From contig CP120722.1 in assembly GCA_029719485.1 (NCBI GenBank), positions 372,001 to 436,000 on the forward strand: a stretch of DNA of 64,000 nucleotides. Reading direction: 5' to 3'. Under the pieces are notes generated by a model. That model worked only from the letters and a program-made list of their open reading frames with translations, was not told the DNA's origin and ran no database searches. Made by a program: the position numbers and the translations under genes. The DNA comes from Kiritimatiellota bacterium B12222 (GTDB taxonomy: Bacteria > Verrucomicrobiota > Kiritimatiellia > SS1-B-03-39 > UBA6053). Below are positions 7,428-64,000 of this stretch, piece by piece; position 1 is the first letter of the stretch; the number at the start of each line of letters is the position of its first letter.

Positions 7428-11030
<3,603 letters not shown>

Positions 11031-20990: not shown

Positions 20991-22286
20991 ATGTCTTCGT
21001 CTGCTTCCACTTTAAAACGTACACTTGCTTTGCCTGGCGCCGTCTTTATGGGCTTAGGCTCCATGGTCGGAACAGGCGTATTCATCAGCATTGGTTTGGC
21101 CGCTGGCGTGGCAGGTACCGCCGTACTCCCCGCCATTGCCCTCGCCGCGTTTGTCGCGATTTGCAATGGACTCTCCAGCGCCCAACTCGCAGCCGCCCAT
21201 CCCGTGAGCGGGGGTACCTACGAGTATGGATACACCTACTTGAAACCCTGTTTGGGATTTTCGGCAGGCTGGATGTTTCTGTTGGCAAAATCTGCCTCCG
21301 CCGCCACCGCCGCCCTCGGCTTTAGCGGCTATCTCTTGCAACAATGCCATCTACAAGATCGCATTCCGCTCATCCTCCCCGCCCTGGGCATCATTCTCGT
21401 CATCACCCTGTTGGTAAAAAGTGGCCTGCAACGAAGTAACTGGATCAATACCGTAGTGGTGCTGATGACCCTGTTCGCCCTCCTCCTCTTTGTCGTCACC
21501 CTGATTCCAACCGCCATCCATGCGGAAAATTTTCACTTCTCTTCTTCAACCTGGACAACCCAGGGATTCCTTAAAGCCTGCGCACTGATGTTTGTGGCCT
21601 ACACGGGTTATGGACGCATTGCCACCATGGGGGAGGAAATCCAAAATCCCCGTCGAAATATTCCTCGCGCCATCTTCGCCGTCATGGCCGTGACCTCCCT
21701 CCTCTATCTCGCCGTCGCTTTCGCCGCCGTAGGAACTGTGGGTGCAGAGAGCTTGGGAGAAATGACCCGATCCGGTGCCGCCCCCTTGGAAAGCATCCTC
21801 CAGCACCTCAACAAACCCAAAACGGCATTTATCATTACTCTGGGCGCGTTAACCGCCATGCTGGGGGTATTGCTGAATCTGATTCTCGGACTTTCCCGCA
21901 TCCTTTTGGCCATGGGACGTCGCGGCGACATGCCCGCTCTCTTCGCCAAACTCCACAACCAAAATCCAACCGCAGCAGTACTGGGTGTAGGATTCCTGAT
22001 CGCCCTCATCGCCCTCAGCGGTCAAGTGCAACTTTCCTGGTCTTTCAGTGCATTCACCGTGCTACTCTATTACGCCATCACCAACCTCGCAGCCCTGCGT
22101 CTCCCTCCCGCTGACCGACGTTTTCCACGTTTTTTTTCTGTTGTGGGCCTCGCCGCTTGCCTCTTTCTCGCTTTTCAAGTGGATCCCAAAATCTGGATCA
22201 GCGGACTCGGACTTTTAGCCATAGGACTCCTCGGGCACTTCGTGCAGAGAAAACGAAACTCCCTTACACTTCCGTCGCAAAACTAA
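20991..22286 (+). CDS. APC-family amino acid permease
   Basis: A 431-residue membrane protein of about twelve helices. The first helix region, FMGLGSMVGTGVFISIGLAAG, has the glycine-rich broken-helix motif (GSMVGTGVF) that binds the substrate amino group in APC superfamily carriers. AYTGYGRIATMGEEIQNPRRNIPRAI is the other highly conserved family segment. It probably takes up amino acids or related compounds by proton exchange. Its last 23 bases overlap the end of the convergent SecA-like gene. Confidence 0.85.
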   Translation: MSSSASTLKRTLALPGAVFMGLGSMVGTGVFISIGLAAGVAGTAVLPAIALAAFVAICNGLSSAQLAAAHPVSGGTYEYGYTYLKPCLGFSAGWMFLLAKSASAATAALGFSGYLLQQCHLQDRIPLILPALGIILVITLLVKSGLQRSNWINTVVVLMTLFALLLFVVTLIPTAIHAENFHFSSSTWTTQGFLKACALMFVAYTGYGRIATMGEEIQNPRRNIPRAIFAVMAVTSLLYLAVAFAAVGTVGAESLGEMTRSGAAPLESILQHLNKPKTAFIITLGALTAMLGVLLNLILGLSRILLAMGRRGDMPALFAKLHNQNPTAAVLGVGFLIALIALSGQVQLSWSFSAFTVLLYYAITNLAALRLPPADRRFPRFFSVVGLAACLFLAFQVDPKIWISGLGLLAIGLLGHFVQRKRNSLTLPSQN

Positions 22287-24228
22287 GCGACTCATCCAAC
22301 CAGTTGTCCGTGGACAATACAGAACCCAGTCGACGGAAAGCCTGACGCTCCGCAGATTTCTGCGCAGCATTCAACGCCGACAATACCGCCGGACGATTGG
22401 GATTTCTAGCCAAGCCTTTGCGTAGCGTCTCTGGCAAGAAACGGCGAAAAAGCTCATCTTCTAAACTTACAAAAAATTGAGCCGACCCCGGATCGCCCTG
22501 TCGGGCGGCCCGACCAATTAGCTGACGGTCAATACGCCCCGACTCATGGCGTTCAGTTGCAATCACATGCAATCCACCCGCATCCGCCACACCGTGACCT
22601 AATTTAATATCCGTCCCCCTACCCGCCATATTGGTCGCAATCGTGATTTTACCCGGCAAGCCTGCCTCGGCCACGATTCGCGCTTCTTCCTCATGACGTA
22701 CCGCATTCAACAAGTTATATTGCAACCCACGCAAGGCGAGTTCGGCCGCCAATTCTTCAGAAAACTTCACCGACCGCGTACCAATCAAAACCGGACGACC
22801 CGCTTCATGCATGGTCTTCACTTCATCCGCAACCGCCTCCCACTTCTGTAAGCGTTCAGGAAAAATACGTTCTGGCAAAACTGTTCGATTTACCGGACGA
22901 TGGGTAGGAATGCGAATAATCGGCAACCCATAAATATGCCACAAGGGTTTGCGCGCCTCTGCCGCGGTACCGGTCATCCCGGACAGACGCGGAAACAGTC
23001 GGAAGAATCGTTGAAAACTCATCCGCGCCACCGTCTCATTCGGTTCCGAAATCTCTAAATCTTCTTTCGCTTCTACCGCCTGATGCAAGCCTTCACTCCA
23101 ACTGCGGTTCGCCATGATTCGACCCGTGAATTCATCGACAATTTGCACCTTGTCATCTCGAATCACGTAATGCGTATCCTTCAAAAATAAGTCGCGGGCG
23201 GTCAGGGCCTGCTCCACCAATTCCCGACTACGAATCGCTCCCCGCCACACCGGAGGCAGTTCCTGAATCCGCGATTCCACCACCTCATCCCCTTCATCCG
23301 TAAGCTTCAGCTCACGATACCGCATTTCAATGCTGTAGTGCGTGCCCTCTTTTAAGTCATAAATCAAATCATGTGCCGCCAATACCGCTTTCTTCAGCAG
23401 TGGATTTTCACGAGGCTGCGCAATAATCAATGGCGTCACCGCCTCGTCGATCAACAAACTATCCGCCTCATCCACAATCGCCGTATGAATGCCCCGCAAC
23501 ACCAAGCCTTCCCGAGAAGAGGCTGCTGGTTTCAACAAATGGCGAATCAAGCGACGCTGAGGATCCGCCACCCGTTGCAAACGCAAACGATCCCGCAAAA
23601 AATCCGCCAGCAATTCTTTACTCGTGGTATAAGTAATCGGCTGTTCGTACTGAAGTTTACGCATCTCCGGATCCATGTCTTCAGTCACACAACCCGAATG
23701 TAGACCACAAAATTGATACAGCGGTTTAAACCAATTCGCATCACGATGAGCCAAATAATCATTCACCGTCAACACATGGCAAGGCAATCCTGTCCACCCC
23801 GCCATCACCGCTGCCAATGCCGCCGTTAAGGTTTTCCCTTCCCCCGTGGCCATCTCCGCCAAGCAATTATTTTCCATGGCCAAGGCACCCAAAATCTGAA
23901 CGGGATACGGACGCAAGCCAATGCTCCGAAACGCAGCCTCACAAACCGTGGCCAACGCACGATCTGTTCGATGGTCAGGATCTCCCCGACCTCGCAAAAA
24001 GGCCGTGCGATGCTCTTCAATTTCATCGCGCAAATGTCGGTCAGATACATGTTCCAATGAAGCCTCGTGACTCTGAACCTTTTCAACAAGCTCTTCCAGA
24101 CGTTTCCGACGACCGCCCACCCGTTTCGCAAAGCCAACGCCTTGATGCGCCAACGCATCCAAGCCCCGCGGAGGGGGGGGGGGAGTTCGCACTGTGAGGC
24201 GATGATAATCTTCGGAAGGTACCTTCAT
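22264..24228 (-). CDS. Truncated SecA-like translocation ATPase
   Basis: The 654-residue protein has the complete SecA motor but not the complete SecA body. Visible are Walker A EMATGEGKT (125-133), TVNDYLAHRDA (154-164), Walker B IVDEADSLLIDEA (251-263), a preprotein cross-linking domain with VQIVDEFTGRIM (361-372), LSGMTGTA (415-422), TNMAGRGTDIKLG (532-544) and QLIGRAARQGDPGS (569-582). After that only about 65 residues remain, ending soon after the start of the long scaffold helix. Housekeeping SecA continues for 250-300 residues with the rest of the scaffold, the wing domain and often a zinc-binding tail. It is the last gene of the TolC-HlyD-M50 operon, five bases after the M50 gene, which argues for a dedicated role in that system. 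Codons 16-19 lie in a C11 tract. Confidence 0.9.
   Translation of the reverse strand: MKVPSEDYHRLTVRTPPPPPRGLDALAHQGVGFAKRVGGRRKRLEELVEKVQSHEASLEHVSDRHLRDEIEEHRTAFLRGRGDPDHRTDRALATVCEAAFRSIGLRPYPVQILGALAMENNCLAEMATGEGKTLTAALAAVMAGWTGLPCHVLTVNDYLAHRDANWFKPLYQFCGLHSGCVTEDMDPEMRKLQYEQPITYTTSKELLADFLRDRLRLQRVADPQRRLIRHLLKPAASSREGLVLRGIHTAIVDEADSLLIDEAVTPLIIAQPRENPLLKKAVLAAHDLIYDLKEGTHYSIEMRYRELKLTDEGDEVVESRIQELPPVWRGAIRSRELVEQALTARDLFLKDTHYVIRDDKVQIVDEFTGRIMANRSWSEGLHQAVEAKEDLEISEPNETVARMSFQRFFRLFPRLSGMTGTAAEARKPLWHIYGLPIIRIPTHRPVNRTVLPERIFPERLQKWEAVADEVKTMHEAGRPVLIGTRSVKFSEELAAELALRGLQYNLLNAVRHEEEARIVAEAGLPGKITIATNMAGRGTDIKLGHGVADAGGLHVIATERHESGRIDRQLIGRAARQGDPGSAQFFVSLEDELFRRFLPETLRKGLARNPNRPAVLSALNAAQKSAERQAFRRLGSVLSTDNWLDESLSFATEV
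24173..24183 (-). repeat. C11 homopolymer inside the SecA-like reading frame
   Basis: Eleven consecutive G on the plus strand (C on the coding strand) fall in codons for the proline run at residues 16-19 of the SecA-like protein. The reading frame is open through it as given. Change of one base would stop production of everything downstream of the first 20 residues. Confidence 0.9.
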
Positions 24229-24233
24229 ATTAC

Positions 24234-26387: not shown

Positions 26388-26388
26388 C

Positions 26389-30867: not shown

Positions 30868-30892
30868 AAAAACAGCTCCAAAATTTCTAAAG

Positions 30893-30921: not shown

Positions 30922-31169
30922 ACAAGACATACAGGACCTTTAGTCATAGGCAAAACATTTCTTATATGGATAAACCTACAAGATGTACTTATGGGATAAA
31001 GTGTATTTTATGAAAAAACCATAAACACAACATCAACTCCACCATAATTGTGGACTTACGGAACTCCCCTTAAAATTCAATAGAATACTAAAACGATCGG
31101 GATTACGTAAATAAAAAATACCAACGTGACAAATATTACATTATACGTGGCAAAATTTGATAGATGAAA

Positions 31170-31463: not shown

Positions 31464-32174
31464 TCAGTCCTGATCACTCAACGGACAATATCGGTAGCCC
31501 ACCCCATGAACCGTTTGTATAAAGGTCGGTACTTTTCGGTTTGGCTCAATTTTCTTTCGCAACTGGGCAATATGCTGATCCAACGTACGAGTCGTTCCAT
31601 AGTAAGCCACCCCCCAGGCATGATTTAAAAGTTCATCCCGGGTGAGAACTTCACGGGGCCTCGCTGCAAATACCGCCAACAATTCGACTTCGCGCACACT
31701 TAAATCAATCTCTTGCTTTCCATCACGTCCCTTTTGCTGTTTAGCCAAAATTCGAAAGGGCCCGATGGTGAAATCATGGCGACAACTTTCTCCACGCGAA
31801 TCCCCGCTCCGCCTCAACAACGCATGCACCCTCGCCAAAAGTTCCCGAACCCCAAAAGGCTTGGTCATATAATCATCAGCCCCCAACTCTAATCCCAACA
31901 CCTTATCAATTTCTTCGCTCTTCGCCGTGAGCATCAATACAGGAATTCTCTGATTATGACGGCGAATCTCACGACAGACATCATAACCACTTCGCCCTGG
32001 CATCATCACATCCAAAATCACCAAGTCAGGGGTCACTTCTTGATACTTCTCTAATCCCTTCTCACCATCGGACGCTTGAGACACCCGATAGTTTTCGCTT
32101 TCCAAGGTGTCGACCAATCCCTGCCGAATCGCGGGATCATCCTCCACCAATAAAATATGAATAGCTGATGTCAT
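31464..32174 (-). CDS. OmpR/PhoB-family response regulator
   Basis: A 236-residue two-domain regulator. The receiver domain has the acidic pocket VEDD, the phospho-acceptor in DLVILDVMMPG, and the TAKSEEIDKVLGLELGADDYMTKPF region with the conserved lysine. The C-terminal winged helix (after about residue 135) ends in the typical GVGYRY. I start it at 32174, where the ATG overlaps the kinase stop by four bases; the frame continues upstream inside the kinase gene. It is cognate to the adjacent kinase and probably controls genes of the envelope; target genes are unknown. Confidence 0.92.
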   Translation of the reverse strand: MTSAIHILLVEDDPAIRQGLVDTLESENYRVSQASDGEKGLEKYQEVTPDLVILDVMMPGRSGYDVCREIRRHNQRIPVLMLTAKSEEIDKVLGLELGADDYMTKPFGVRELLARVHALLRRSGDSRGESCRHDFTIGPFRILAKQQKGRDGKQEIDLSVREVELLAVFAARPREVLTRDELLNHAWGVAYYGTTRTLDQHIAQLRKKIEPNRKVPTFIQTVHGVGYRYCPLSDQD

Positions 32175-33754
32175 GATTTTTCCTCCGGAGGCACAGGAAT
32201 CCTCCAAACAAAGATACAACCTGTTTTATCTGAATGACAGGACAAGTCTCCATTCATCTCCCGCGCCAATCGACGCGAAATATGCAATCCTAATCCCGTG
32301 CCTCCACTCTCACGCGTAATACTCATATCCACCTGATGAAAGGCATTAAAAATTTTAGTTTGTTCAGACGGAGGAATCCCCGGCCCCTCATCCTCAAAAC
32401 TCACAGCAAGATGATCACCACTCTTTTGAATTTTAATACGCAACACCCCTCCCTCTGACGCATACTTCATCGCATTATCAAATAAATTAAGCATCACCTG
32501 CTCCACCGCATCTGGATCCGCAAACCCCCATCCCTGCTCTTCGGGTAAACATACGCACATCCCCAATTCGGTAAACCTTTCCTGCACCCGCTCCACCACG
32601 GCGAGCAAATGATCATTCACGCAAAGCGGAACGGCTTGTAGACGACTACGCCCCATTTCAAGCCGACTAAAATCCAACACATTATGCACCAAGCGGGCCA
32701 GGCGTTCACTTTCATTGCGCATCGTTTGCAAATAGTGTTTTTGTTTTTCGGGATCTTTCACCCGCCCTTCCAACAACAATTCACTATACAAACGCAAGGT
32801 GGTTAAGGGCGTTTTAAATTCGTGACTCACATTCGAAACAAAGCTGGTCTTTTGCAACGCCTCTTTCCGACTCCGATTCACCCAGGCCGTTAACCCAAAC
32901 GTTCCACCTAAAATGCACAGAATCAACATCAGCCCCAAACTCCCCGCCACATACAAGAACGCATCTGACAATCCTTCTTCCAGTGGAGCTTGCGGATACA
33001 TCGCCAAACGCGCATACGGCAACAAGGCACCCATCTCCGTACTCAGTTCCCCGCTGCGATTTTCTGTTTCACCCGTGGCTACCAAAACCCGGTCCCGTCG
33101 ATCTAACAGCGCCAAATCAACACCCCCCGCCGAAATAGACAAAGAACGTAACCACACATCAATGCGCGCATACAAAGCCGACATCTCGATCTCAACCCCC
33201 ACCACTTCAGCCTGACCGCCCACAGACACATACAACAATAAACTATCCCGATCCGCCCATTGCCACGGCCGCCATTCCGAAAGCAACTCAGGAGGCGCCC
33301 TTTTATATCTGGAAAAACTTTTGGTTTCAGCCTGTGGAGGAAACCACTCCACCCGGTCTGCAAACAACGCCTCATATCGACTCAAAAACTGTTCCGTTTC
33401 AGGGTCCAAATAAATTCCGAGCTTCGGAAGTAACACCTTTCCATCTTCCGACACTCGGAACACATTCCGAACCAAAGGATGACTACGCTGCAACTCCATC
33501 AACGCCTCGTCTTTTGCAGACGCCGGCAAGGACTGCAGCTGAAAAATCAATTCATCCCTCAACCTCTCCATCCGTTCCCGCAGCCGCTCAGCACTTTGCT
33601 CCAAACTCCGCTCATGAACACTCAAGGTCTGCTCTTGCAAACGTTGCTGTTCCAGAAACAACATTTTCATCCCCACACCCGCCAGCACCAACACAGGAAG
33701 AATCACCAAAATTGTGAAAAACCAAACGGGAAACCTACGGGGGTGGGATCTCAT
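32171..33754 (-). CDS. Membrane sensor histidine kinase
   Basis: A 527-residue kinase with a helix at residues 10-31, an extracytoplasmic sensor region of about 230 residues, a second helix near 265-290, a short linker, the HisKA segment FVSNVSHEFKTPLTTLRLYSE with the phospho-accepting histidine, and a HATPase domain with N-box LFDNAMKYA, G1 box DEGPGI and G2 box GGTGLGLHI. It starts after AGGA five bases upstream, seven bases from the end of the VWA gene, and its stop overlaps the response regulator start. The sensor region has no family I recognise. Confidence 0.92.
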   Translation of the reverse strand: MRSHPRRFPVWFFTILVILPVLVLAGVGMKMLFLEQQRLQEQTLSVHERSLEQSAERLRERMERLRDELIFQLQSLPASAKDEALMELQRSHPLVRNVFRVSEDGKVLLPKLGIYLDPETEQFLSRYEALFADRVEWFPPQAETKSFSRYKRAPPELLSEWRPWQWADRDSLLLYVSVGGQAEVVGVEIEMSALYARIDVWLRSLSISAGGVDLALLDRRDRVLVATGETENRSGELSTEMGALLPYARLAMYPQAPLEEGLSDAFLYVAGSLGLMLILCILGGTFGLTAWVNRSRKEALQKTSFVSNVSHEFKTPLTTLRLYSELLLEGRVKDPEKQKHYLQTMRNESERLARLVHNVLDFSRLEMGRSRLQAVPLCVNDHLLAVVERVQERFTELGMCVCLPEEQGWGFADPDAVEQVMLNLFDNAMKYASEGGVLRIKIQKSGDHLAVSFEDEGPGIPPSEQTKIFNAFHQVDMSITRESGGTGLGLHISRRLAREMNGDLSCHSDKTGCIFVWRIPVPPEEKS

Positions 33755-50713: not shown

Positions 50714-50758
50714 TGTAAGGATACCTGATAAGATGTGAAAAAAACGTAATATAAAATC

Positions 50759-51301: not shown

Positions 51302-51362
51302 AAGCAGAGTTCTTTGGGGGTTAATTTTGAAAGGGATGAACAGGTTATCTACGAAAGAGCGT

Positions 51363-52127
51363 CTAGATATCTATTTGGAGATTTCTTTGCAAAAGCTCAC
51401 CCTCCATTTTGATCCCAACATGACCATCAGCAAAAAGACATTTGATTCCCTTGCCATTGGCCGCCCGCCAACGAAGTTGCCCCCTGGCGGCAGCAGTATC
51501 GTCTTCATCCGGTCCCCGACTGACAGGCATATCGCTGTCCCCGTGCGGATAGCGCTTCCATACCCCACTGGCGGCATAAAAAGTCGCCATGCTGTCGCCA
51601 TTTAGTACTTGTGCCCCATCAGCCATTAACACTTGTTCACTGGCACGGGTCGCGAGATCCCGCCAAATCAGACGTGCAGTATCAGAAGGCTGGGGGTCAG
51701 TACTATCCCATTGTTGAATATCAGGCATAAACGCAGGATTACAGGAGAAGTGATAATTCCCCTTTTGGGAAGAGGCCGCAGGATCTTTAAACACCTGCGA
51801 CGCTTCCCCGCCATCCTGATACGTCGATCCCTCTCCGCCCAAGTAGGGAGAGAGAATAACTGCATAATTTGTAGTTTTAGAAACAGAGGGAGGAAAACGA
51901 CCCTCAAAGTCCATAGAAAACAACTGCACCGCAATTCCGACCTGCCGCAAGTTGGAAAGTCCCTTCACTTGCTTCGCACCCATCAATGCGCGATTTACAG
52001 CAGGAACAAGCAGAGAAGATAACAAGGCGATGATCGCAATCACCACCAACATTTCTATTAAAGTAAATGCCGCCATGGATGAGGCACGCATTTTGCGGCC
52101 TTTGAAAGTGAGACTTTTGTTGTGCAT
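51363..52127 (-). CDS. Type II pseudopilin-like protein (H-X9-DG type)
   Basis: The 254-residue protein has a short positively charged leader, the prepilin peptidase site [20 protein letters not shown], and ends with the FADGHV motif seen in the large family of pseudopilin-like proteins abundant in Verrucomicrobiota, Lentisphaerota and Planctomycetota. These are thought to be exported and processed like GspG, but do not need to sit beside a type II secretion operon. A downstream methionine at 52091 would give a more usual short leader. It is the first gene of the operon with the secreted protein and GH5 enzyme. Confidence 0.88.
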
Positions 52128-52165
52128 ATTTTAAAAATACCCGAGTTCCAGCTCAAGTCCACCAC

Positions 52166-52187
52166 AAAATGTAATTATTTACATTTT
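52166..52187. promoter_or_regulatory. Palindromic operator in the pseudopilin/GH5 promoter
   Basis: A perfect inverted repeat with 9-base arms AAAATGTAA and TTACATTTT separated by TTAT lies 38 bases before the pseudopilin gene. Its core ATGTAA-N4-TTACAT is identical to the core of the palindrome in front of the PEP-CTERM gene. It is most likely bound by the adjacent LacI-family regulator. Confidence 0.75.
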
Positions 52188-52203
52188 AAGGTGTGGCTTA
52201 CAA
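52174..52203 (-). promoter_or_regulatory. Candidate promoter of the pseudopilin-GH5 operon
   Basis: On the minus strand TTGTAA (52198-52203) and AATAAT (52174-52179) are 18 bases apart, and the palindrome overlaps the -10 box. The match to consensus is moderate. Confidence 0.45.
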
Positions 52204-52217
52204 CCTCGTTACTTTTA

Positions 52218-53276
52218 TTATCCCCTAGGCGCAGCCGTGGTTTCTCTAACAATGAGTTCAGGCGTAAAAAGATTCAGCTCCCTACTGTTCTTTTTCATCC
52301 CATCTTTTAAATGAAGCTCATGAATCATGCGTACAGATGCATCGGCCATCTTTAGCCACGGTTGCCGAATCGTTGTCAATGCGGGCGAATGACGCGAAGC
52401 CCATAACGCATCATCAAAGCCCGTAACCGAGACCCGCTCCGGACACGACACCCCTTTAGTCGCAAGACCACGAATCAACCCTAATGCCTGCTCGTCGTTT
52501 CCACAAACCACTGCGGTCACTTTTTCGAGTAAGGGGAAAATATAATCCGCCGCCGCTACCCCACTCTCAAAGGTAAACTCCTCATTAAAACACCAATCAG
52601 AACGAACCACCCGTTGATGATCCGCCATCGCCGCTTCAAAACCTTCACGCCTGTCCCTGACATCACGCCGATTGGCCGGCCCATTCAAATGTGCGATATG
52701 CTGATGCCCTAACTCAATGAGATGCTCTGTGACCATATATCCCCCGGTTTTTTCCTCCGTACCAAACACAGGAACCGTCAAATCACTGGGATCTACTCCC
52801 ATGGGAAGACAGCTTGAAATGGTAACAAAGGGTTGGTGCAACCGCTCCAGACCGATTAACATGCGGGCCGTCAGAGTATCGGAAAGATAAATTATTCCTC
52901 CACAACCTACAGTAGCCGCAGTCAATTGCTCATTGAAGTCTTCCTCATAGTCCGGCTGAAAGGCAATGGCATGCACCACCTGCTTTCTCTCTGCAGCCGC
53001 ATGCATCATGCCCGACATCAACCGCGCATAGTATTCACTCAAAAAAATCTTATCCTTGTTCCTCAATAGAATGGCGATGGGCGCCATACTGGTGCCACGA
53101 AGGATACGCGCCCCTGGATGCGGTGTAAAATGGAGTTGCGCCGCTAAATCTTGAATCCTCCGACGCGTTTCAGGCTTCACAATGTGAGCTGTTTTGGGGT
53201 TGAGTGCCCGGGACACGGTTGCCACAGAAACCCCTGCTTTTTCGGAAAATGTAACTATATTCAATCTTTTTTTCAT
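52218..53276 (-). CDS. LacI-family transcriptional regulator
   Basis: A 352-residue repressor-type protein. The N-terminal helix-turn-helix is NIVTFSEKAGVSVATVSRALN, followed by a hinge and a periplasmic-binding-protein-like effector domain with GGIIYLSDT, GHQHIAHLNGP, VVCGNDEQALGLIRGL and VSVTGFDDA. I start it at 53276, where family members begin; the frame extends 34 codons upstream into the divergent promoter region. Its neighbours suggest it responds to a sugar from glycan breakdown and controls the GH5 operon and the PEP-CTERM gene. Confidence 0.92.
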   Translation of the reverse strand: MKKRLNIVTFSEKAGVSVATVSRALNPKTAHIVKPETRRRIQDLAAQLHFTPHPGARILRGTSMAPIAILLRNKDKIFLSEYYARLMSGMMHAAAERKQVVHAIAFQPDYEEDFNEQLTAATVGCGGIIYLSDTLTARMLIGLERLHQPFVTISSCLPMGVDPSDLTVPVFGTEEKTGGYMVTEHLIELGHQHIAHLNGPANRRDVRDRREGFEAAMADHQRVVRSDWCFNEEFTFESGVAAADYIFPLLEKVTAVVCGNDEQALGLIRGLATKGVSCPERVSVTGFDDALWASRHSPALTTIRQPWLKMADASVRMIHELHLKDGMKKNSRELNLFTPELIVRETTAAPRG

Positions 53277-53423
53277 AACTGCAACATGATGTAGAACGGG
53301 TACTAGAGGAGTTTCATCAGGAAAAACACCATTTTCTTTAGTTAAAAATACACATACTTCACAGCTTCCTCTGTTCATTACTCGGGAACCTTAAAATAAA
53401 TTATAAATTATTCATACAAAACA

Positions 53424-53451
53424 TTGACATGAATGTAAATATTTACATAAT
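53424..53451 (+). promoter_or_regulatory. Promoter of the PEP-CTERM gene
   Basis: A perfect TTGACA (53424-53429) and CATAAT (53446-53451) are 16 bases apart, close to vegetative consensus, 27 bases before the start codon. The operator palindrome fills most of the spacer and overlaps the -10 box. Confidence 0.7.
53433..53448. promoter_or_regulatory. Palindromic operator in the PEP-CTERM promoter
   Basis: A perfect 16-base palindrome with half-site ATGTAAAT lies between the -35 and -10 boxes. Its core ATGTAA-N4-TTACAT matches the one at 52166-52187. The placement is ideal for repression by steric exclusion of polymerase. Confidence 0.8.
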
Positions 53452-53478
53452 TATAAAAACCTCATCAAAGGATACCCT

Positions 53479-54243
53479 ATGACTTATGAAAAAATGACTT
53501 CGGGACTTGCGAATACACATTCTCGTTTAAAACTCCCTATCCTCGCACTGGCATTCATCTGTGCATCATCTCTTCAGGCCACAATTTTGGTTCAGTATGA
53601 TATGGAAAATGCCAGCAACAGAGACGCGACATCAACCGAAGTGTCCGGACTCTCTGCATCAGATCTCACACTGAACAATTTAAATGCCAGTGGAATCACC
53701 ACCCCTTCAGGCTCATCAGACGTTTTTAGAACCATTATTTCTGCATATGCAGGGGGAACGACTGCAGGAGAGGCTTTAACCGAAGGTGCAGGTGCTACGG
53801 GAACCTATTTTTATCTCACCATTACCCCTGATGCCTTAAAATCTATTTCACTTACCAGTATTTCTTTTGATACCTTTGCCGCTACGGGTGGTCCAAGTAC
53901 ACGTCAGGTTTATCTGTTCTCCGATAAAACAGGCATCACCGATGGAGATGAACTTATATCTGCCAGTACCGTAAGCGGATCTCCCTTAATCCCCTACAAT
54001 AGTACGGCAACCGGACAAAACTTTTCCCTCGATCTATCTGGAATCAGTGCGTTCCAAAATATTTCTGATTCCGTGAACTTCCGGTTCTATACCCAAACCC
54101 CCACGGCAAGTCAGGGAATCGCCTTTGACGATATCACCATAGAAGGATCTGTAAATACTATCCCTGAACCCAGTAGCTATGCGCTCTTCTGTCTTACAGG
54201 CATGGCCTTCCTCCTGTTTAGAAGTCGCCGACAGATCAAATAA
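53479..54243 (+). CDS. PEP-CTERM sorting domain protein
   Basis: The 254-residue exported protein has a signal peptide ending CASSLQA, a beta-rich, serine/threonine-rich body and a classical PEP-CTERM tail: IPEPSSYALFCLTGMAFLLF followed by arginines. PEP-CTERM proteins are processed by an exosortase and usually end up at the cell surface or in exopolysaccharide. It is preceded by AAAGG and driven by a strong-looking promoter containing the putative LacI operator. No exosortase gene is in the window. Confidence 0.9.
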   Translation: MTYEKMTSGLANTHSRLKLPILALAFICASSLQATILVQYDMENASNRDATSTEVSGLSASDLTLNNLNASGITTPSGSSDVFRTIISAYAGGTTAGEALTEGAGATGTYFYLTITPDALKSISLTSISFDTFAATGGPSTRQVYLFSDKTGITDGDELISASTVSGSPLIPYNSTATGQNFSLDLSGISAFQNISDSVNFRFYTQTPTASQGIAFDDITIEGSVNTIPEPSSYALFCLTGMAFLLFRSRRQIK

Positions 54244-54684: not shown

Positions 54685-56064
54685 TTAAGGAATAGCTTGC
54701 GTAATCTCCACCTGCCAAAAGAGAGGACTACTGGGATTCACGATACTCCAATCAAGTGGATTTCCAGTACCGGATTTGGCCGCGCCCGCATTTACCCATC
54801 CACCCTCATTCATCAAATTGTCATTCGAAATCAATTGATAGCTATAGCCCAGAACTGAGGTATCTAAATGAAGATCAATATCTACACCATCGGGGGTAAT
54901 GCTCAGGGTATGAAGCGTAATGGTAAAGTCTTCGGAAACCACTGCACTATAAACGCCGTCTAATTGAGAAACCGCTTTTACTGTCAGGGTTGCACTCACA
55001 TCAAAGGGTGATGCATATTCCATATCCCCATCATCCGGTTCACTGCCATCCGTGGTATAAAAAGTGTACTCACTACCCGCACCAGGCACCACCGTGACTT
55101 CAATGGGAGTAAAGGACGTGGTTTCTGTGGATTGAATCTGGGGAGCCAGCACCTCAGCAGCGCCGGCAATAATGACGCTATCTCCCACCAGCGCAATATC
55201 ATTGCCTTGATCTTCGGCAACCACCGCTCCGGCTTCATTTAAAATCGTGACACTACTGTCCGTAGAACTATCGACGGATAACAGCACCCGTTGGGTTCCA
55301 CCGATCAACCATTCATTATCTGCCGTAGCGACCACGCCATTCAAATCTTGCGTTACCGTTGCAGATAAAGCCGAAAAGCTTTGGCCTTGATCTGTAGAGA
55401 GTAAAACCGTTCCTGCTTCACCCACAGCCAATATATTACCCGCAGCATCTACAGCTACCCCATTTAATACTGGGGTAAACGGAGGCAACGTGGAAGCCAC
55501 CCAATTGGCGCCGCCATCGCTTGAGTAGAAAGCTTGCCCATCAAATAGATCTCCTCCTACCGCAACCCAATTGCTGCCAGTTCCTGTAAACACAATATCG
55601 TTCATACTTTCCATGCCCACGGGACTGACATCTTCCCAAGTCACCCCATTATCAGTGGATCGAAAAATAGCGTCTCCTACCGCATGCCAAACCGAGGCCC
55701 CATTACTCGAGACCGCTCGAAGGTCGCCAATAATTGCAGGAGTACTCTTTTCATCCCACACTAAAGGATCGATCGAAAAATCAGACACAAAAATAACTCC
55801 GTCAGTCCCTACCGCAATCACCGTTTGACCACTCACTCCTAAGCCAAACAAAGACTCATCATGATCAAACAATTCACTGTAGGAATTTCCTGCATCAATG
55901 GACTGCATGACTTCCCCTTCATCGGTCAGGGTCAGTGCCCCGGATCCATAAGCAATGATATCCGTAAAGCTCTGGTCAGACCCTTGTGGACGTTGCGCGA
56001 ACAACCGCATTCCCCCAGTGGAGAACATCAAGCCGAGTAGAATAGTAGTAAAGAATCTCATCAT
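54685..56064 (-). CDS. Secreted beta-propeller (YCF48/BNR-like) protein with chitobiase-type C-terminal domain
   Basis: The 459-residue protein has a signal peptide ending GGMRLFAQ, then several blade-like repeats with the Asp-box-like phrases IFRSTDNGVTWEDV, AFYSSDGGANWVAS and VLLSTDQGQSFSAL, as in YCF48/BNR sialidase-like propellers. Near residues 310-375 there is FYTTDGSEPDDG, the hallmark of the chitobiase/beta-hexosaminidase C-terminal (CHB_HEX_C_1) domain. Its ATG overlaps the stop codon of the giant repeat protein by four bases (ATGA), so the two are co-translated. It may bind the giant protein or a surface glycan. Confidence 0.82.
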   Translation of the reverse strand: MMRFFTTILLGLMFSTGGMRLFAQRPQGSDQSFTDIIAYGSGALTLTDEGEVMQSIDAGNSYSELFDHDESLFGLGVSGQTVIAVGTDGVIFVSDFSIDPLVWDEKSTPAIIGDLRAVSSNGASVWHAVGDAIFRSTDNGVTWEDVSPVGMESMNDIVFTGTGSNWVAVGGDLFDGQAFYSSDGGANWVASTLPPFTPVLNGVAVDAAGNILAVGEAGTVLLSTDQGQSFSALSATVTQDLNGVVATADNEWLIGGTQRVLLSVDSSTDSSVTILNEAGAVVAEDQGNDIALVGDSVIIAGAAEVLAPQIQSTETTSFTPIEVTVVPGAGSEYTFYTTDGSEPDDGDMEYASPFDVSATLTVKAVSQLDGVYSAVVSEDFTITLHTLSITPDGVDIDLHLDTSVLGYSYQLISNDNLMNEGGWVNAGAAKSGTGNPLDWSIVNPSSPLFWQVEITQAIP

Positions 56065-59000
56065 GGTGCGGTGTAGTTAATGGGGGTTCCACCAGCATAA
56101 CTGGTGAGGAAGGCGCTGGTATCCACATCGTAGATATTCAATGTGTTGTTCAAGAGGAGGTTGGCAATCGTGGTATTGATATATGCCACAACTGCATGAT
56201 CCGAGGTGATATTGGTTCCGGAATATCCGGGTTTCACTTTAATCCCCAGCAAGGTAGCGCGCAGGATGGTGGAGCTTCCCGTACTAATAATACGGGCTAA
56301 TTCCAATTCTTGAGCTTTCAAGGTCAACACCCCATTGGTCGAACGGATCAACGAATTAGAGGCTTCCATGGAAATATAACTTCCCGCTTGCATACTCAGG
56401 TTACCTGAAGCGTAGTTTTCAACCAAACCAAAGACCACCAACGCATGAGGTGAAGTAATATTGATACTGCCCGTCCCTTCTGAAATTCGGAAGTTATCGA
56501 GGAAGCTTTGTACATTATTGGGAGCGCGTAATTCGAGGGTGAGATTCCCTGTACGGGTAATGGCTGAGAATCGTGCGCCCTGCAGAACGAGACGACTCAC
56601 TCCGGATAAGGAAATCCCTGTATCTAAGAGGAGTCCAATACTGCCTCCACTCTGCATCAGCGGAACGTTTCCTAAGCCTGCACCTTGTACATTCAATAAT
56701 CCATCAGAGACCTGAACATCAATCATGCCCGTACCGGAATGAACCAATCGACCGGTCTGGATTAAATTACCATTATCTACGATCAACTGAATTTTTCCTG
56801 AGCCCGACGTGGTGGTAATCCCATCCACGGTGACGTCACCTTCCACTTGATAGGCCTGTGAACCCGTTGTGGACGATGCGGTAAATTCATCTGCGGCGAT
56901 GGTGATCGGATTTGTATTCACAGTTCCGGCACCACTTTCAACCTCAATGCTCACCTCACCATTCTCAGCATTCACATACGGATCGGTAATCGACCCCGAC
57001 TGCTGAAGGCTATCAACTTCAATCCGGATACTTCCGTTATCCGTCACCAAGCGGGTCCCTAAGGTTACCGCCGCATCAGAGATCCAGACGAAAGTACCGA
57101 CACCAGGCACTACGGCCACCCCATTGTAAGAGGTCAATTCAGCTTCATTCATCTTCAGGGTCAAGGTATCGCCTGTAGATTCATTGATCAGACGTAATCC
57201 GTAACGGCCGACCACCAAATCATCGAGTTCGTAAATTTCAGTCACAGCACCTGCATCGACATCTAAGCGATCGGCGTCAGTGAGCACAGGCAAAATCGCG
57301 CCATCGGCACTCAAACGTACGGCTGCACCTTTGATTTCATGCGTCGCCCGACTGGTCGAGACCGCATCAATATTTCCGCCGGCCTGTAAATCCACGCCTA
57401 CCGCGCCATGAAGAAGACCGACGGTCATATCTGTTCCACTCTGAAGCTGAACTCTTCCCGTCGTGGCTTCAATCACACTTGCTTCGCCCATCACCAAGGT
57501 GGTCAAGGTGCGAACCTGAACATTTCCGGTTGCGGAAGTTACGACAACTGCATCCGACATAAGCATGCTCGCGGTAGTGATCCGTAAATCACGTCCAACG
57601 GAGATATCGGCCTGCAGATCGGTGATGCCCGCAATCGTGAGGTAGGCCCCACTGCTGGCCGTCAAACTAATCGGAGCTGTGAGAGTAACATCACCCAACG
57701 CATTGAGATAAAGATATCCATGTCCGCTGAGAGTAAGCCCACTGAGAGTGGTGGCGGATTGTAGATTCACAAATACGTTTCCGTCTCCTTGGCTATCCAC
57801 AGTTAACTCAGCGGCATCCACTTCAATGCCACCTGAACCGGTGCTACCCAATCCGGTAAGTGTCGTCACGGTGGCAACGGCAGCGGTACGAATATCAGCT
57901 TCCGCATCTCCTCCATCCAAGAAGCGACCTGCAAGTGACATCAGGGTTACACCCAATGGTGAAGCTACACCATGTTGTGACGCATCGGTCACACCACCGG
58001 CCGTAACCGCAATGGATCCAAGGGCTGCATCATCGGCTTCACGAACAAACACCGTTCCAGTCTCACTGACTACACTCAAAGCATCGACTTGCGACGCTAA
58101 AGGACTACCCAAGGTGCCAATGTCACCCTCAGCATTCACCCGTAAGTTAGTGGCGGTGATCAATCCCGACGTCTGCGTAATCGTGCTGGTCGTTAATAAA
58201 GAAACATCTGTCGCGGTGATGGTACCGAGATCGAGTACTCCTTCCGCAGAAAGACGTACATTGCCTACTACAGAGATGGGTTCATCCACCGTAAGGAAAT
58301 CATCAGACAGGATCACCACATCTCCACTGACCAGCGTTTGAATTCCGGTCAACACATCGCCAGTGGCCATACCTGTTACCGTAACACTACCAATTTCAAG
58401 GCCTTCATTATCTGAGAGAAGGATATCTCCGTTCGTACTCACTGCAGCCAAGGTATCGACCCGTGTAATCAAATAATGACCTATTTCGCCGACACCGTTG
58501 GTGGCTTCAATCCGAAGAGCACTCGCATCAACATTCAAGGTCGATCCAACGGTCTTCAACACTTGATTTCCAGCAAGTAAAGCCACCGTACCACTGGTAA
58601 TCCGTCCTAAGGTAAGATTACCTTGCGCACCCATCAAAACGGTATTGGCAGTATCCGTCACAATATCCGATTGTTGATCAGCCGCATTTCCAGGCGTAGC
58701 GAGGTTATCCACCGCACCCACTTCAACATCTCCGGTATCCGCAATGAAGATATCACCGGATGTACTATGAGCGCTGAGCAGCTCAACATCTGTAACCAAC
58801 GGAACCAACACCGTACCGATATCCCCCGTAGCATTCAACAGCAGAGCCGTCGCTTCCACATTGGGGGTAGAAACCGTATTATTTAAAATATCCGTCGCAG
58901 AGAAAAGATTTACAATATCTCCCGCGATCGTGCCTAAGGTAAGCGTATCTCCTGTGGTCAATACCACGTCTCCACCGGCAGTAGCCCGTAGATCAGAAAG

Positions 59001-62000
59001 AGCCGCATCTGTTAGCACGGTCGTTCCAGCATTCGCGGTGAATTCTGTCACCGAAACTTCCACTTCGCCAATGGTCAAGGCATCCAGTTCGGTGATAAAG
59101 ATTCCCCCGGCCCCGGCAGAGCCACTCAAAGTAGAAACGGCAGTGGTCAATCGACGTGCCGCCGTGCCCAGTCCATTTGCCGCCACGATGCGTAATTCCG
59201 TTGCCGTGACATTGCGGATGGTCCCGGTGGCATTGAATACAGATCCAGAAGTGGAAAGAATCGAAACTTCAGCAGCCGTCAAGGTACCTAGAGTCACATC
59301 ACCATCTCCAGAAATGCGCAAACTGGAATCCATCGCTTGAACTTGGGTCAACCCGGTCATGCTCACGGCACCGCCGGCTCGTAAAGAAATAGTTCCTGCA
59401 GTGGCCGTACTGATGGTTACAACCCCTACTCCCGCAGCGATATTGTCACCCGCCACCACAGTGATGTGACCTGTTCCTGAAGAGATGCCACTGTTGACCG
59501 CCACATTTACAGGCGCTTCCAAACGTATACTTCCGGTTCCGTTAGCTTCCACCGCAAGGAAGTCCTCGTCGCCCCCATCATTCAAGGTGATGGATCCTGC
59601 CAAGGTCACCAAAACGATGTCGCCATTGAGTCCGGTCGTCAAATCAGGTTGCGACGCATCGATCACAGACGTCGTGGCCGCGGTGCTTCCTACTTGAGAA
59701 GTCGTGACCGTCACACCGGTAACTGTCACATTATCGCTTTCCGTTAAAAAGATATCGCCGGTAGCAGAGGAGGCGCTGAGGGTAGCGGCAGCAATACGTA
59801 GATGGGAAGCCGCAGATCCAATACTTTGGGCGGCAGAGATGCGCAATCCACTGGTGCTTACATTTACGCCCGTACCCGCAACTTTGCTAATCTCTCCACT
59901 GGTACTGATCAAAGAGCTGTTGGTCGCGGTTAACGTCGCCACCTGAATATTGCCATCAGCCAACAAACGTAACGATGCACCTGGAGCGGAAATCGTGGCC
60001 GTCTGGTTCATGGAAATTGAACCACTACCCGCGTCTACAAATACAGAACCACTGCCCGTCGTCGTCACATCCACATTCGCCGTTAGGTCCACCCCATTGC
60101 CAGCGATGAGACTGATATGACCTGTTCCAGAACTTACATCCTGAGAAATCGTTACTTGAGTATCCCCATCCAGCAGAATATTGCCGCTGCCATGTGCCGA
60201 TACCACATCAGAAATCGTTACAGATCCTGCGAGCGATACCAATACAATCGGACCGTTACTGCCCAAAGTCTTGATGCCACTTAAGCTCGCTGCCGTTACT
60301 GAGGAAGTGGTCGCATCATTCTGAACTTCCTGCACCACAACCGCATTACTGCTCACGCCAATATCGCCCGTCGCCTGCAAATAAATGCCTCCGGAGCTGC
60401 TCACCGCAGACACAAAACTCGCGGTAACCGTTAACGGATTGATACCCGTTCCGATATTCGACTGAGATTGCAGACGAAGGAAAGTGCCCTCAAAATTCAA
60501 TGTAGAACCCGCTGCATTGATCACCTGTCCATTTGTGGAAGTAACCGCTGCAGATGTACCCACTAAATTCCCCAGCGTCACATCTCCAGAACCCTGTAAG
60601 AACAGACTGGAGTTTTCAGCGCTGACCGTCGCAGTACCCAACATGGTCAATGCGGCACTCTCTGCCCGCAAATAAACGGTGCCTGTGGAAGCTGTCGTAA
60701 TGTCAGCATTCACATTCAATGCCCCGAAAGCACGCAAGGTCACATGACCGCTTGCCGACTCAACATCCGCATTTGCGGTAATATCTTGCGCCGCATAAAC
60801 CCGAACGTTTCCACTTCCGTCTGCAGATACCGCGATCCCATCGCTGTCAGCACCATCGGCAAGTACCACAGAACCACTACTGGCTCGTAAAACAATGGAT
60901 CCATTGCTGTTGGTGCTGAGATCACTAAGGGTTTCATTGGGCATGGCCTGTAAACTACCATCTGTGATCACCCGCTGAATGGTAATATCAACAACATCAA
61001 CTGTCAGCCCAATTTCATTCACCACGTTCATGCCACCCGCACCAGCTTCACCCGCAATGCGACCAACCCGTGTACGGAATGCTGAAATAGGAGAAACAGG
61101 GGTTAAGGTTCCGACACCACCATTTAAAGCAGACAACAATAACTGAGAGCCGATCACTTCCTGATCAAAGGTTGTGGAACCCGCACCTAAAATATATCCA
61201 ACCAATGTTCCTATGGCTACTTTTCCTGAAGTGGTGATCCCCCCTAATTTAATCCCAGAGGCCGCCGCGATGGCCACATTACCCGTACCCGCGATAAAAC
61301 GAGATTCAGCTTCGGCCATCACCGTTGATGTACTGAACACATGCAGTTGACCTGCACCACCTGTGCGCACTTCAATTTCAGTCGCCAATTCAAAACTACC
61401 AACACTTTGCAACGTAATACTTCCAGAGCCACTGGAGATATCCGCGTCCACATCTAACACATCTGCGGAGTTAATTAAAATATTCCCTGCCTGACTCGCA
61501 CTAATCTCATGTCCGGCAAGCACATTGATTTCGCCCGTTACATTTTCGACCACAATGGTTCCAACAGATCCACCCGACTTGAGACCACTTTGCGCAGTTA
61601 CGGGTGTCGCCACCACAGAGCCATCCATTTGAACCACTTGCGTAGACGCTTGGGTGCTGCCGATGTCCAAGGCTGTGGATTCAGTCACATACATTGCGCC
61701 ATTGGTCGTGGCGGCTGAGAGCGTACTCACATCAATTTCAAGATGATTGTTGCCCGTAGCGATGTTTGTTCCCGCTTTTAACCGTAGGCTGGTAGCAGAG
61801 ATATTGAGGTCCCCAGCATTGTTATCCAAAATGGCCGCCGTATCCGAAGTCACAGATACCTGGAGGTTCGTGGTGATCTGCGCGAGAGAAATGGTGTTTT
61901 TCGCTTTGAGGACAATATCACCGTTTTCAGCAATTAACTCACTTCCCGCAGCTTGGGTAATGCCGCCATTTGAAGAGAAGAGAGACAAGCTGCCCACACC

Positions 62001-64000
62001 AGAGCTTTCAACGAAAACATCCGTTGCCAACACCATCCCCCCATTTCCGCGTAAGGTAAGATGACCACTTCCCGCCATGATCGAATCATTTAAAGTAAGC
62101 ACGGCATTGGTAGCTGAACTTTGTAAGAAAAGATTTCCACTACCGGTCAGATACACACCGTATTCCGCATCAAGGGGATCTCCCCCAGTCAATACGGTCA
62201 GATTGCCGGCAGAGGTCATGGACACCGATCCGCCTCCCAAGGACTGCAAACCGTAAACCGGATTCACAACCGTGGACGTTTCAACGCCAGCAATATCCAA
62301 GAGCGCAACCGCGCCCGAAACTTCACCGATCTCCACAGCAGATAATTCGTTTAGCACCATGCTGCCCGTGGTCACCTGCACCGCCAATAGATTTACATCA
62401 ATATCGATAGCGTTGTAGGGACTCAAAATTCCAATACCCGTACCGGAGAGGATCTGCAATTCATCTGCGATCACATCCGTGTCGGTATCGCCATTATCCA
62501 ATAGTTTTTCACCCACATCCAGGGCAACCAATCCGTTAACCGCTTGTACAGAAGCTATGACAAAGTCGTTGGTTGTTTCCACCCGGATATCGCCATTGTC
62601 GGTTTTAAATTGGGTTTGATCATCCATGGTCAGGGCTGCACCCACCACCACTTGCAGATCACCATTGCTACTCAAGACTTTCGCAGCAATGCCATCGCCG
62701 GCACTTGGCGCAGATTCGGGTGTAGTGATCCAATTCGCCGCCGCAGCGATAATCAAACTGATCGCGCCATCTTCAGAACTCACATCCGCATACGCATTTA
62801 AACTATTCGCTGAGATAAAGATTTTCCCCGCACCTTGCGTGCTCACCACAGAGCCATCCGCATCGCCATCGTTAAGATCTAAGGCACCGCTCACCGACAT
62901 CAAAATATTGCCTGCTGTCGTAGAAACGATATCCGCCTGATCTGCTTTCACAAAGGCAGGGTCTGTGGTGACACCTAAAATGTTCACCGTATCAACCGTC
63001 ACGCCCACAGCAGTCACATCCACATCACCCGTGACATCCAACTGAATATCATTTACGGCCAAGGCAGAAAGCGTGTCCGCAGTCAACGCAATGGGATGCG
63101 CAACCGACCCAATGGCCCCACCGGAGTGCAAACGTAAACCGGAAGAAGTCAATTGCAGTGCAGGCGCAGCCGCATCCACCAAAAGATCGCCATCCGTCAT
63201 CAATGATAAATCACCCGTGCCTGTATCTACGCGACTTAAGGTCATGGCACCTACAGCATTCAACGCCGCATGATCATCTGATACTGTAATCACCGAGGCC
63301 GGATCTTGAGTGAACACTCCTCCGGATTGCATCAAAAGCGTACCACCAGAAACATCCAAGTTTCCAATCAACAACGTGTCCAAGGTGGACGTAATTTGTG
63401 CCGATCCATTGGTGATTTCACTATCACCATTCAAGGTCAACGTTCCACCCGTGCTCAAATGGAAGTTACCATTCACTGCAATGGTGGGATCCGTGACGGA
63501 GAGCTCTACCGTTAAGGCATCGCCTACTTGAAGTACGGTATTGCCATCCCCATTGGTTAATTGGCTTTCATTCCATGTACCCGAAACCGTAGATTTATCC
63601 ACCTGAGCAAATTTCACGCTCACACTGGAATTTCCAATAATGAGAGCATCTAGCTCATTCACGGCCAAATCGCCCACCCCAGCACTGGCATTTAATCGGG
63701 CAACATCCGTGATGAATGCTTCGTTGGCCGCAGTTAACGATCCTACAGATAGGGCCGCATCCACTTGCAAGGTTCCCGTCGTAACCGAAGTGCTCCCATC
63801 ATTGGCAGCGCGGAGTACCGAACCTGAAGTCGATTCAATACGCACATCCGCATCAGGCGATAGGACATGTGAAATCAATACATTGCCCATGGCCTGTAAA
63901 AGCACATTGCCTCCATCCGCATCCAAGGTCATGGCCGCATTCATGGAAAGAGATCCACTCGCCGCCACCCCTACATCGCCACCCTGGGTATTGATATCCA
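56061..64000 (-). CDS. Giant extracellular repeat protein (3' part, runs off the right edge)
   Basis: At least 2,640 residues of one open frame are visible, and the frame continues past position 64000, so the true start lies outside. The sequence is low in charged residues and rich in Gly, Ser, Thr, Val, Ala and Leu, with short strand phrases such as GDVTLGTL, GNILLDGD and SGSITLND, typical of beta-helical filamentous-hemagglutinin-like surface proteins. Larger repeats of about 211-218 residues recur several times in the middle; each starts near a TLSAxxxxGxIFxxE-like phrase. The C-terminal end (GGTPINYTAP) has no beta-barrel, no PEP-CTERM tail and no LPXTG motif, so how it is exported and held is not evident. 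PVC genomes often carry such giants. Confidence 0.85.
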   Translation of the reverse strand, partial: DINTQGGDVGVAASGSLSMNAAMTLDADGGNVLLQAMGNVLISHVLSPDADVRIESTSGSVLRAANDGSTSVTTGTLQVDAALSVGSLTAANEAFITDVARLNASAGVGDLAVNELDALIIGNSSVSVKFAQVDKSTVSGTWNESQLTNGDGNTVLQVGDALTVELSVTDPTIAVNGNFHLSTGGTLTLNGDSEITNGSAQITSTLDTLLIGNLDVSGGTLLMQSGGVFTQDPASVITVSDDHAALNAVGAMTLSRVDTGTGDLSLMTDGDLLVDAAAPALQLTSSGLRLHSGGAIGSVAHPIALTADTLSALAVNDIQLDVTGDVDVTAVGVTVDTVNILGVTTDPAFVKADQADIVSTTAGNILMSVSGALDLNDGDADGSVVSTQGAGKIFISANSLNAYADVSSEDGAISLIIAAAANWITTPESAPSAGDGIAAKVLSSNGDLQVVVGAALTMDDQTQFKTDNGDIRVETTNDFVIASVQAVNGLVALDVGEKLLDNGDTDTDVIADELQILSGTGIGILSPYNAIDIDVNLLAVQVTTGSMVLNELSAVEIGEVSGAVALLDIAGVETSTVVNPVYGLQSLGGGSVSMTSAGNLTVLTGGDPLDAEYGVYLTGSGNLFLQSSATNAVLTLNDSIMAGSGHLTLRGNGGMVLATDVFVESSGVGSLSLFSSNGGITQAAGSELIAENGDIVLKAKNTISLAQITTNLQVSVTSDTAAILDNNAGDLNISATSLRLKAGTNIATGNNHLEIDVSTLSAATTNGAMYVTESTALDIGSTQASTQVVQMDGSVVATPVTAQSGLKSGGSVGTIVVENVTGEINVLAGHEISASQAGNILINSADVLDVDADISSGSGSITLQSVGSFELATEIEVRTGGAGQLHVFSTSTVMAEAESRFIAGTGNVAIAAASGIKLGGITTSGKVAIGTLVGYILGAGSTTFDQEVIGSQLLLSALNGGVGTLTPVSPISAFRTRVGRIAGEAGAGGMNVVNEIGLTVDVVDITIQRVITDGSLQAMPNETLSDLSTNSNGSIVLRASSGSVVLADGADSDGIAVSADGSGNVRVYAAQDITANADVESASGHVTLRAFGALNVNADITTASTGTVYLRAESAALTMLGTATVSAENSSLFLQGSGDVTLGNLVGTSAAVTSTNGQVINAAGSTLNFEGTFLRLQSQSNIGTGINPLTVTASFVSAVSSSGGIYLQATGDIGVSSNAVVVQEVQNDATTSSVTAASLSGIKTLGSNGPIVLVSLAGSVTISDVVSAHGSGNILLDGDTQVTISQDVSSGTGHISLIAGNGVDLTANVDVTTTGSGSVFVDAGSGSISMNQTATISAPGASLRLLADGNIQVATLTATNSSLISTSGEISKVAGTGVNVSTSGLRISAAQSIGSAASHLRIAAATLSASSATGDIFLTESDNVTVTGVTVTTSQVGSTAATTSVIDASQPDLTTGLNGDIVLVTLAGSITLNDGGDEDFLAVEANGTGSIRLEAPVNVAVNSGISSGTGHITVVAGDNIAAGVGVVTISTATAGTISLRAGGAVSMTGLTQVQAMDSSLRISGDGDVTLGTLTAAEVSILSTSGSVFNATGTIRNVTATELRIVAANGLGTAARRLTTAVSTLSGSAGAGGIFITELDALTIGEVEVSVTEFTANAGTTVLTDAALSDLRATAGGDVVLTTGDTLTLGTIAGDIVNLFSATDILNNTVSTPNVEATALLLNATGDIGTVLVPLVTDVELLSAHSTSGDIFIADTGDVEVGAVDNLATPGNAADQQSDIVTDTANTVLMGAQGNLTLGRITSGTVALLAGNQVLKTVGSTLNVDASALRIEATNGVGEIGHYLITRVDTLAAVSTNGDILLSDNEGLEIGSVTVTGMATGDVLTGIQTLVSGDVVILSDDFLTVDEPISVVGNVRLSAEGVLDLGTITATDVSLLTTSTITQTSGLITATNLRVNAEGDIGTLGSPLASQVDALSVVSETGTVFVREADDAALGSIAVTAGGVTDASQHGVASPLGVTLMSLAGRFLDGGDAEADIRTAAVATVTTLTGLGSTGSGGIEVDAAELTVDSQGDGNVFVNLQSATTLSGLTLSGHGYLYLNALGDVTLTAPISLTASSGAYLTIAGITDLQADISVGRDLRITTASMLMSDAVVVTSATGNVQVRTLTTLVMGEASVIEATTGRVQLQSGTDMTVGLLHGAVGVDLQAGGNIDAVSTSRATHEIKGAAVRLSADGAILPVLTDADRLDVDAGAVTEIYELDDLVVGRYGLRLINESTGDTLTLKMNEAELTSYNGVAVVPGVGTFVWISDAAVTLGTRLVTDNGSIRIEVDSLQQSGSITDPYVNAENGEVSIEVESGAGTVNTNPITIAADEFTASSTTGSQAYQVEGDVTVDGITTTSGSGKIQLIVDNGNLIQTGRLVHSGTGMIDVQVSDGLLNVQGAGLGNVPLMQSGGSIGLLLDTGISLSGVSRLVLQGARFSAITRTGNLTLELRAPNNVQSFLDNFRISEGTGSINITSPHALVVFGLVENYASGNLSMQAGSYISMEASNSLIRSTNGVLTLKAQELELARIISTGSSTILRATLLGIKVKPGYSGTNITSDHAVVAYINTTIANLLLNNTLNIYDVDTSAFLTSYAGGTPINYTAP

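Follow-up and report, generated by a model that had tools for sequence, protein, structure and literature searches.

Giant proteins have been widely reported from PVC and other bacteria, but there is no agreed account of their export. A possible clue lies in a secondary SecA_DEAD/type I-related module described by Kamneva, Poudel and Ward in 2015, for which no substrate was named and whose role was termed ‘completely unknown’ (PMC4452313). These authors suggested that SecA_DEAD is the ATPase supplier and that the M50 protein is the membrane part; the words giant, LEPR, leader and PqqD are absent from their paper (PMC4452313). The LEPR-XLL domain has a separate literature, and in the papers found (PMC10868602, PMC9611531; bioRxiv preprints lay outside the scope) it is tied neither to an export system nor to the SecA_DEAD module.

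The window, i.e. the whole 64,000-nucleotide stretch of DNA that was analysed, is C1:372001-436000 of the single-contig 4.43-Mb genome of Kiritimatiellota bacterium B12222 (CP120722.1), and its relevant features are collected in Table 1. A first-pass annotation of the window had described a giant open reading frame between 56061 and the end of the window. This frame indeed continues past that point, being stop-free from 72794 to 56061 (window-extended coordinates; genome position 444,794) with 5,577 codons from stop to stop. Read from a GTG at extended position 72782, 8.8 kb outside the window, the protein, here termed giant 2, has 5,573 aa, a calculated mass of 560 kDa, a pI of 4.05 and no cysteine. 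A LEPR-XLL domain, MKKPTPHSLFDLEALEPRILLSA, forms the N-terminus, and the N-terminal reading MKKPTPHSLFDLEALEPRILLSADA matches NF012209 (LEPR-XLL) at 23.2 bits, with a cut-off of 17; what had been a guess at the unseen N-terminus was confirmed when the missing 5' part was obtained. No hydrophobic signal peptide is found in the first 60 residues (19-residue hydropathy maximum 1.21), and no membrane-like segment in the last 100; the protein has no anchor, and its C-terminus no barrel or sorting signal. The visible part of giant 2 has zero family matches in Pfam and NCBIfam, which, together with the hydropathy of the last 100 residues, bears out the earlier statement that the C-terminus lacks a barrel or sorting signal. 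RTX nonapeptides number zero in giant 2, and the C-terminal RTX signal expected of a substrate of ABC-type type I secretion is absent.

Table 1. Features of the giant-protein locus and of the candidate exporter (window positions; extended positions continue the numbering past the window)
Feature	Position	Strand	Remarks
Giant 1, LEPR-XLL ORF	72854-124165 (extended)	-	17,103 codons; 17,102 aa from TTG
Giant 2, 3' part (residues 2929-5573 of 5,573 aa)	56061..64000	-	gene runs on past window to extended position 72782 (GTG start; genome C1:444782)
Giant 2 repeat unit, residues 3296-3513	62244..62897	-	HMM i-E 6e-46
Giant 2 repeat unit, residues 3523-3735	61578..62216	-	HMM i-E 7e-57
Giant 2 repeat unit, residues 3747-3956	60915..61544	-	HMM i-E 3e-47
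Giant 2 repeat unit, residues 3968-4171	60270..60881	-	HMM i-E 4e-58
Giant 2 repeat unit, residues 4184-4382	59637..60233	-	HMM i-E 2e-56
Giant 2 repeat unit, residues 4393-4599	58986..59606	-	HMM i-E 4e-60
Modelled two-unit stretch, residues 4177-4603 (427 aa)	58974..60254	-	AlphaFold2 prediction, all-beta, solenoid-like
BNR/sialidase-type repeat protein, 459 aa	54685..56064	-	start overlaps giant 2 stop (ATGA)
Histidine kinase	32171..33754	-	adjoins exporter operon
Response regulator, OmpR type	31464..32219	-	possible control; adjoins exporter operon
TolC-family outer membrane protein, OEP, 626 aa	29050..30930	-	PF02321 E 6e-35
HlyD-type periplasmic adaptor, 273 aa	28232..29053	-	candidate exporter
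GAF-HlyD fusion, 616 aa	26389..28239	-	candidate exporter
PqqD-like domain, M50 intramembrane metalloprotease and HlyD fusion (M50-HlyD), 717 aa	24234..26387	-	candidate exporter
SecA-like ATPase, 654 aa, NBD1, preprotein cross-linking domain and NBD2	22264..24228	-	candidate exporter

The period of about 215 residues proposed in the first-pass annotation is real. Repeats are masked by the self-match when the whole protein is searched against itself by BLAST, so fragments of giant 2 were searched instead; these gave 258 off-diagonal matches (best E 2e-34), while shuffled and locally shuffled controls gave none. The main offsets are 210-218 (residues 3930-4610), with offsets of 222-230 farther upstream and a weaker half-period of about 110 residues; ungapped autocorrelation and a Fourier scan show weak periodicity. 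An iterated HMM resolves 24 full or partial, diverged units of a repeat of about 206 columns between residues 381 and 5528, spaced about 210-227 aa apart, and finds no unit in reversed sequences. The giant-2 relative in genome G006 has 23 units and that in G008 has 18, the latter gene being cut by a contig end.

The suggestion that the repeat unit forms a beta helix agrees with the confident all-beta model predicted for two units with 22 aligned stretches as input (mean pLDDT 96, pTM 0.92); in its regular part the short strands are spaced by about 22 residues and grouped in threes. Foldseek with this model returned no significant match (best E 0.015, TM about 0.24), the top ranks being held by autotransporter passengers, with EtpA, and other beta-helix proteins, none of them significant. 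VgrG and T4-type spikes were considered and rejected, the PDB profile matches being weak and fitting no more than a beta-structured rod. The repeat body is predicted to be a beta-solenoid, not assigned to a known passenger family, and giant 2 is probably a beta-solenoid fibre at the cell surface.

Giant 1 ends 60 bases upstream of the giant 2 frame on the same strand, and its N-terminus matches NF012209 at 33.3 bits (cut-off 17). Both giants thus show an N-terminal motif over the cut-off on a very long repetitive protein, as in NF012209 (5,573 and 17,102 aa, with 24 units in giant 2). In LEPR-XLL starts, the start codon lies mostly about 12 residues ahead of the first E of the leader, whose core F-x-L-E-x-L-E-P-R-I-L/M-L-S is fixed. 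Giant 1 contains about 48 RTX-like nonapeptides, with some 40 RTX matches in the domain search, together with FG-GAP repeats, LamG and a proprotein-convertase P-domain. The pair of giants recurs in two related genomes, G006 (20,466 then 5,448 codons) and G008 (18,189 then 4,871 codons, the latter cut by a contig end). Across 11,866 aligned columns, giant 1 and its relative in G006 are 49% identical, which indicates conservation of these long frames and speaks against an accident of assembly. Giants 1 and 2 are probably cotranscribed or at least co-maintained, and their make-up of RTX, LamG, P-domain and solenoid makes it likely that they lie outside the cell as a calcium-stabilised surface fibre or adhesin.

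Homologues of the BNR protein that overlaps the end of giant 2 adjoin giant-2 relatives in G006 and G009. Downstream of the giants, positions 49559-54243 encode a GH5-type glycosidase, a type II pseudopilin-like protein, a LacI-type regulator and a PEP-CTERM protein, a setting of polysaccharide use. The genes at 5934-10960, suspected from their size to be a type I operon, encode an O-mannosyltransferase-like protein, an MFS protein and isocitrate dehydrogenase.

The first-pass annotation had left the export route open. Its remark on the missing barrel and sorting signal stood, but it did not connect the giant with a strong candidate exporter in the same window, viz. five minus-strand genes at 22264-30930 in the transcription order TolC/OEP, HlyD, GAF-HlyD, M50-HlyD and SecA-like. 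The SecA-like protein aligns to SecA from the first NBD through the second and has intact ATPase motifs. The alignment ends near residue 562 of a B. subtilis-type SecA, and therefore the helical wing/scaffold part of SecA is missing.

In the M50-HlyD protein several stretches within residues 156-460 are hydrophobic, and the protease motifs HExxH and NPxxxxDG are intact, H-E-x-x-H and N-P-L...D-G being kept in 40 diverse relatives; the protein matches the daptide protease model NF041824 at E 2e-50. Its C-terminal half is predicted to adopt a MexA/MacA-like adaptor fold. Of 22 relatives, 16 match PqqD (PF05402) within the first 100 residues, with a best E of 5e-9, while the window copy reaches 18.1 bits, under the Pfam cut-off of 23.4. 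A PDB profile search with this N-terminal domain matched no PqqD structure; the model places strands followed by helices at this region, and the domain is PqqD-like by prediction only. In peptide biosynthesis, leader peptides are bound by domains of the PqqD type.

The window module lies about 30 kb from giant 2 and outside its operon. We assign it to giant 2 because it shares 66% identity with the copy in G008, after which comes a LEPR giant, and because leader and module co-occur genome-wide (see below). The two-component genes beside the exporter operon differ in type, OmpR-like here and LytTR-like in G008 (L049:12212-15116).

The same genome holds a third giant of 8,021 codons at C1:2579430-2603495 (L034, L035), with DUF4347, many DUF11 and SdrD_B domains and a variant leader, LQIETLEDRVLYNA, that matches NF012209 weakly. 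It is followed by divergent GAF-HlyD, M50-HlyD, SecA-like and HlyD genes of its own. The genome thus has two module copies with 31% identity, the second adjoining a giant with the variant leader LEDRVLYNA.

The leader and the module co-occur and adjoin across phyla. Among 289 Verrucomicrobiota genomes, clear LEPR giants are present in 18, all 18 of which have an M50-HlyD protein scoring at least 370 bits, a level reached by 20 genomes in total and set, like the one used below for Gammaproteobacteria, once the score lists had been seen. None of the remaining 269 genomes has a clear LEPR giant, and among them there are just five weak matches, in short frames (Fisher p about 1e-26, a guide only, as such tests disregard relatedness). 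One of the two exceptions, G005, has a second-type module with a long ORF cut by a contig end. A similar pattern is seen in 230 Gammaproteobacteria, where LEPR is found in 14/14 module genomes (M50-HlyD at least 420 bits) and in 6/216 others, one of the six looking spurious; leaving out the genome used as centre, the figure is 13/13. When 50 genomes were selected solely by M50-HlyD, from Verrucomicrobiota, Planctomycetota, Desulfobacterota, Nitrospirota, Chlorobi, Fibrobacter, Elusimicrobia, Omnitrophota, Gammaproteobacteria and others, 39 had LEPR.

Adjacency provides evidence independent of this genome-wide co-occurrence. Where a module copy shares a contig with a giant, 21 of 23 copies lie within 15 kb of it, upstream or downstream, in two phyla. 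Full clusters are found in G286, G116, G074, G161, G092, G147 and G008:C88, and at the third giant described above. Across 80 module loci, 11 ORF N-termini carry a strict version of the leader motif; the remaining 439,820 residues contain it a single time, and shuffled N-termini do not contain it at all. A SecA-like gene is present in 66 of the 80 loci, most of the others ending too soon or being incomplete; in the gammaproteobacteria G427, G533 and G547 (L155, L160, L161), M50-HlyD/GAF-HlyD genes lie beside LEPR giants and the stretch read has no SecA-like gene.

Weak LEPR matches in G025, G056, G141, G204, G280, G463 and G577 fall in short frames and were set aside. A further match, in a 7,373-codon frame of G554:C57 (L149, L150), overlaps long opposite-strand ORFs and is probably spurious; long antisense frames can mimic giant LEPR proteins. 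An uncultured planctomycete, G348 (L140), has 22 LEPR-XLL matches and a single retrieved module locus, so that one exporter may possibly serve many substrates.

Taken together, we consider it quite probable that the giants are extracellular and that the LEPR-XLL leader directs both to a dedicated exporter composed of the SecA-like, PqqD-like-M50-HlyD, GAF-HlyD, HlyD and TolC proteins. Physical export of the giants by this strong candidate is our inference, and so are the binding of the leader to the PqqD-like domain, the removal of the leader by M50 and the role of the giants as surface adhesins or fibres. In such a process the PqqD-like domain of M50-HlyD would capture the leader at the extreme N-terminus, and the SecA-like ATPase would act as the motor that drives the polypeptide through the inner membrane. 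M50-HlyD would serve in the inner membrane as leader receptor, as membrane passage or leader peptidase, and as adaptor; M50 may clip the leader, and the M50-HlyD, GAF-HlyD and HlyD adaptors would bridge to the TolC-type channel. We lean slightly towards regarding this as a separate kind of secretion, specialised for giants in many phyla, in which a LEPR-XLL leader is read by a PqqD-like receptor, the motor is SecA-like but lacks the Sec contact domains usually present, the protease-adaptor is an intramembrane M50 protein and TolC forms the conduit.

The RTX-like nonapeptides of giant 1 raise the question of whether the giants leave by ordinary ABC-driven type I secretion, with the SecA-like module serving something else. 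A Vibrio LEPR-XLL giant with C-terminal RTX has been presented as an adhesin or cytotoxin-like protein that is secreted (PMC10868602), and ABC exporters are present in the genome. However, giant 2 is without RTX repeats, and in the genome the best matches to the two type I models searched stay below the cut-off, with 50 versus 208.65 bits for TIGR01843 (HlyD) and 315 versus 693 for TIGR03375 (LssB-type). Type I export would also leave the tight association and adjacency of LEPR and module unexplained, and we regard it as unlikely.

An association of this kind might instead arise from the shared lineage and habitat of large-genome bacteria, with the module handling small leader-bearing peptides. 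PqqD and M50 domains are indeed typical of peptide maturation, as the match to the daptide protease model illustrates, and 42 of the 289 Verrucomicrobiota genomes have M50-HlyD relatives of lower score (75-350 bits) without a clear LEPR giant. Common descent would nevertheless hardly be expected to place module and giant side by side in 21 of 23 cases in two phyla, to retain two such divergent copies in one genome, the second again beside a giant with a variant leader, or to give the same association in unrelated phyla, and this explanation seems improbable to us. Least probable of all, and by our judgement very much so, is export by the general Sec route and an outer-membrane beta-barrel of the two-partner or autotransporter type, as for filamentous haemagglutinin. 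The beta-solenoid prediction and the non-significant Foldseek ranking would suit it, whereas giant 2 has neither a hydrophobic signal peptide nor a C-terminal barrel and no ShlB/TpsB protein was found in the genome.

Since its description in 2015 the SecA_DEAD/HlyD/M50 module had stayed an orphan; pairing it with the LEPR giants gives each a partner and indicates a way in which bacteria may export the largest of their proteins. Translation of the giants would, by simple arithmetic, take about 14-19 minutes at 15-20 aa/s. The signal for type I secretion is C-terminal; a leader at the N-terminus would make sense because export could, unlike with a C-terminal signal, begin before synthesis ends.

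Compared with known systems, the beta-helix proteins of two-partner and autotransporter secretion (FHA, EtpA, EspP) share with giant 2 a long, predicted beta-solenoid body, while giant 2 is without their signal peptide, barrel or TpsB partner. The giant adhesins of ABC-driven type I secretion, such as SiiE, share the tripartite adaptor and TolC-like conduit, and substrates that are large, repetitive and Cys-free; here, in contrast, the signal is N-terminal, a SecA-like ATPase takes the place of the ABC transporter and an M50 protease is fused to the adaptor. The M50 maturation proteases of daptides and epipeptides have in common with the window protein an HExxH M50 protease related to NF041824 and, by prediction, a PqqD-like leader-binding domain, whereas here M50 and an HlyD adaptor make up a single protein, which is paired with a SecA-like ATPase, and the partners are giants and not short peptides. 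Among LEPR-XLL proteins (NF012209, LEPR-8K), both giants of the locus match at the N-terminus and the third giant weakly. The genes at 22264-30930 are the set of Kamneva et al., viz. SecA_DEAD, M50/HlyD, HlyD and GAF-HlyD, with the OEP of some loci there also present here. The module (2015) and LEPR-XLL as a named NCBIfam domain were thus already known; added here to the description of the module are the PqqD-like domain and the link to the LEPR-XLL giants, and it is the linking of leader to module that appears to be new.
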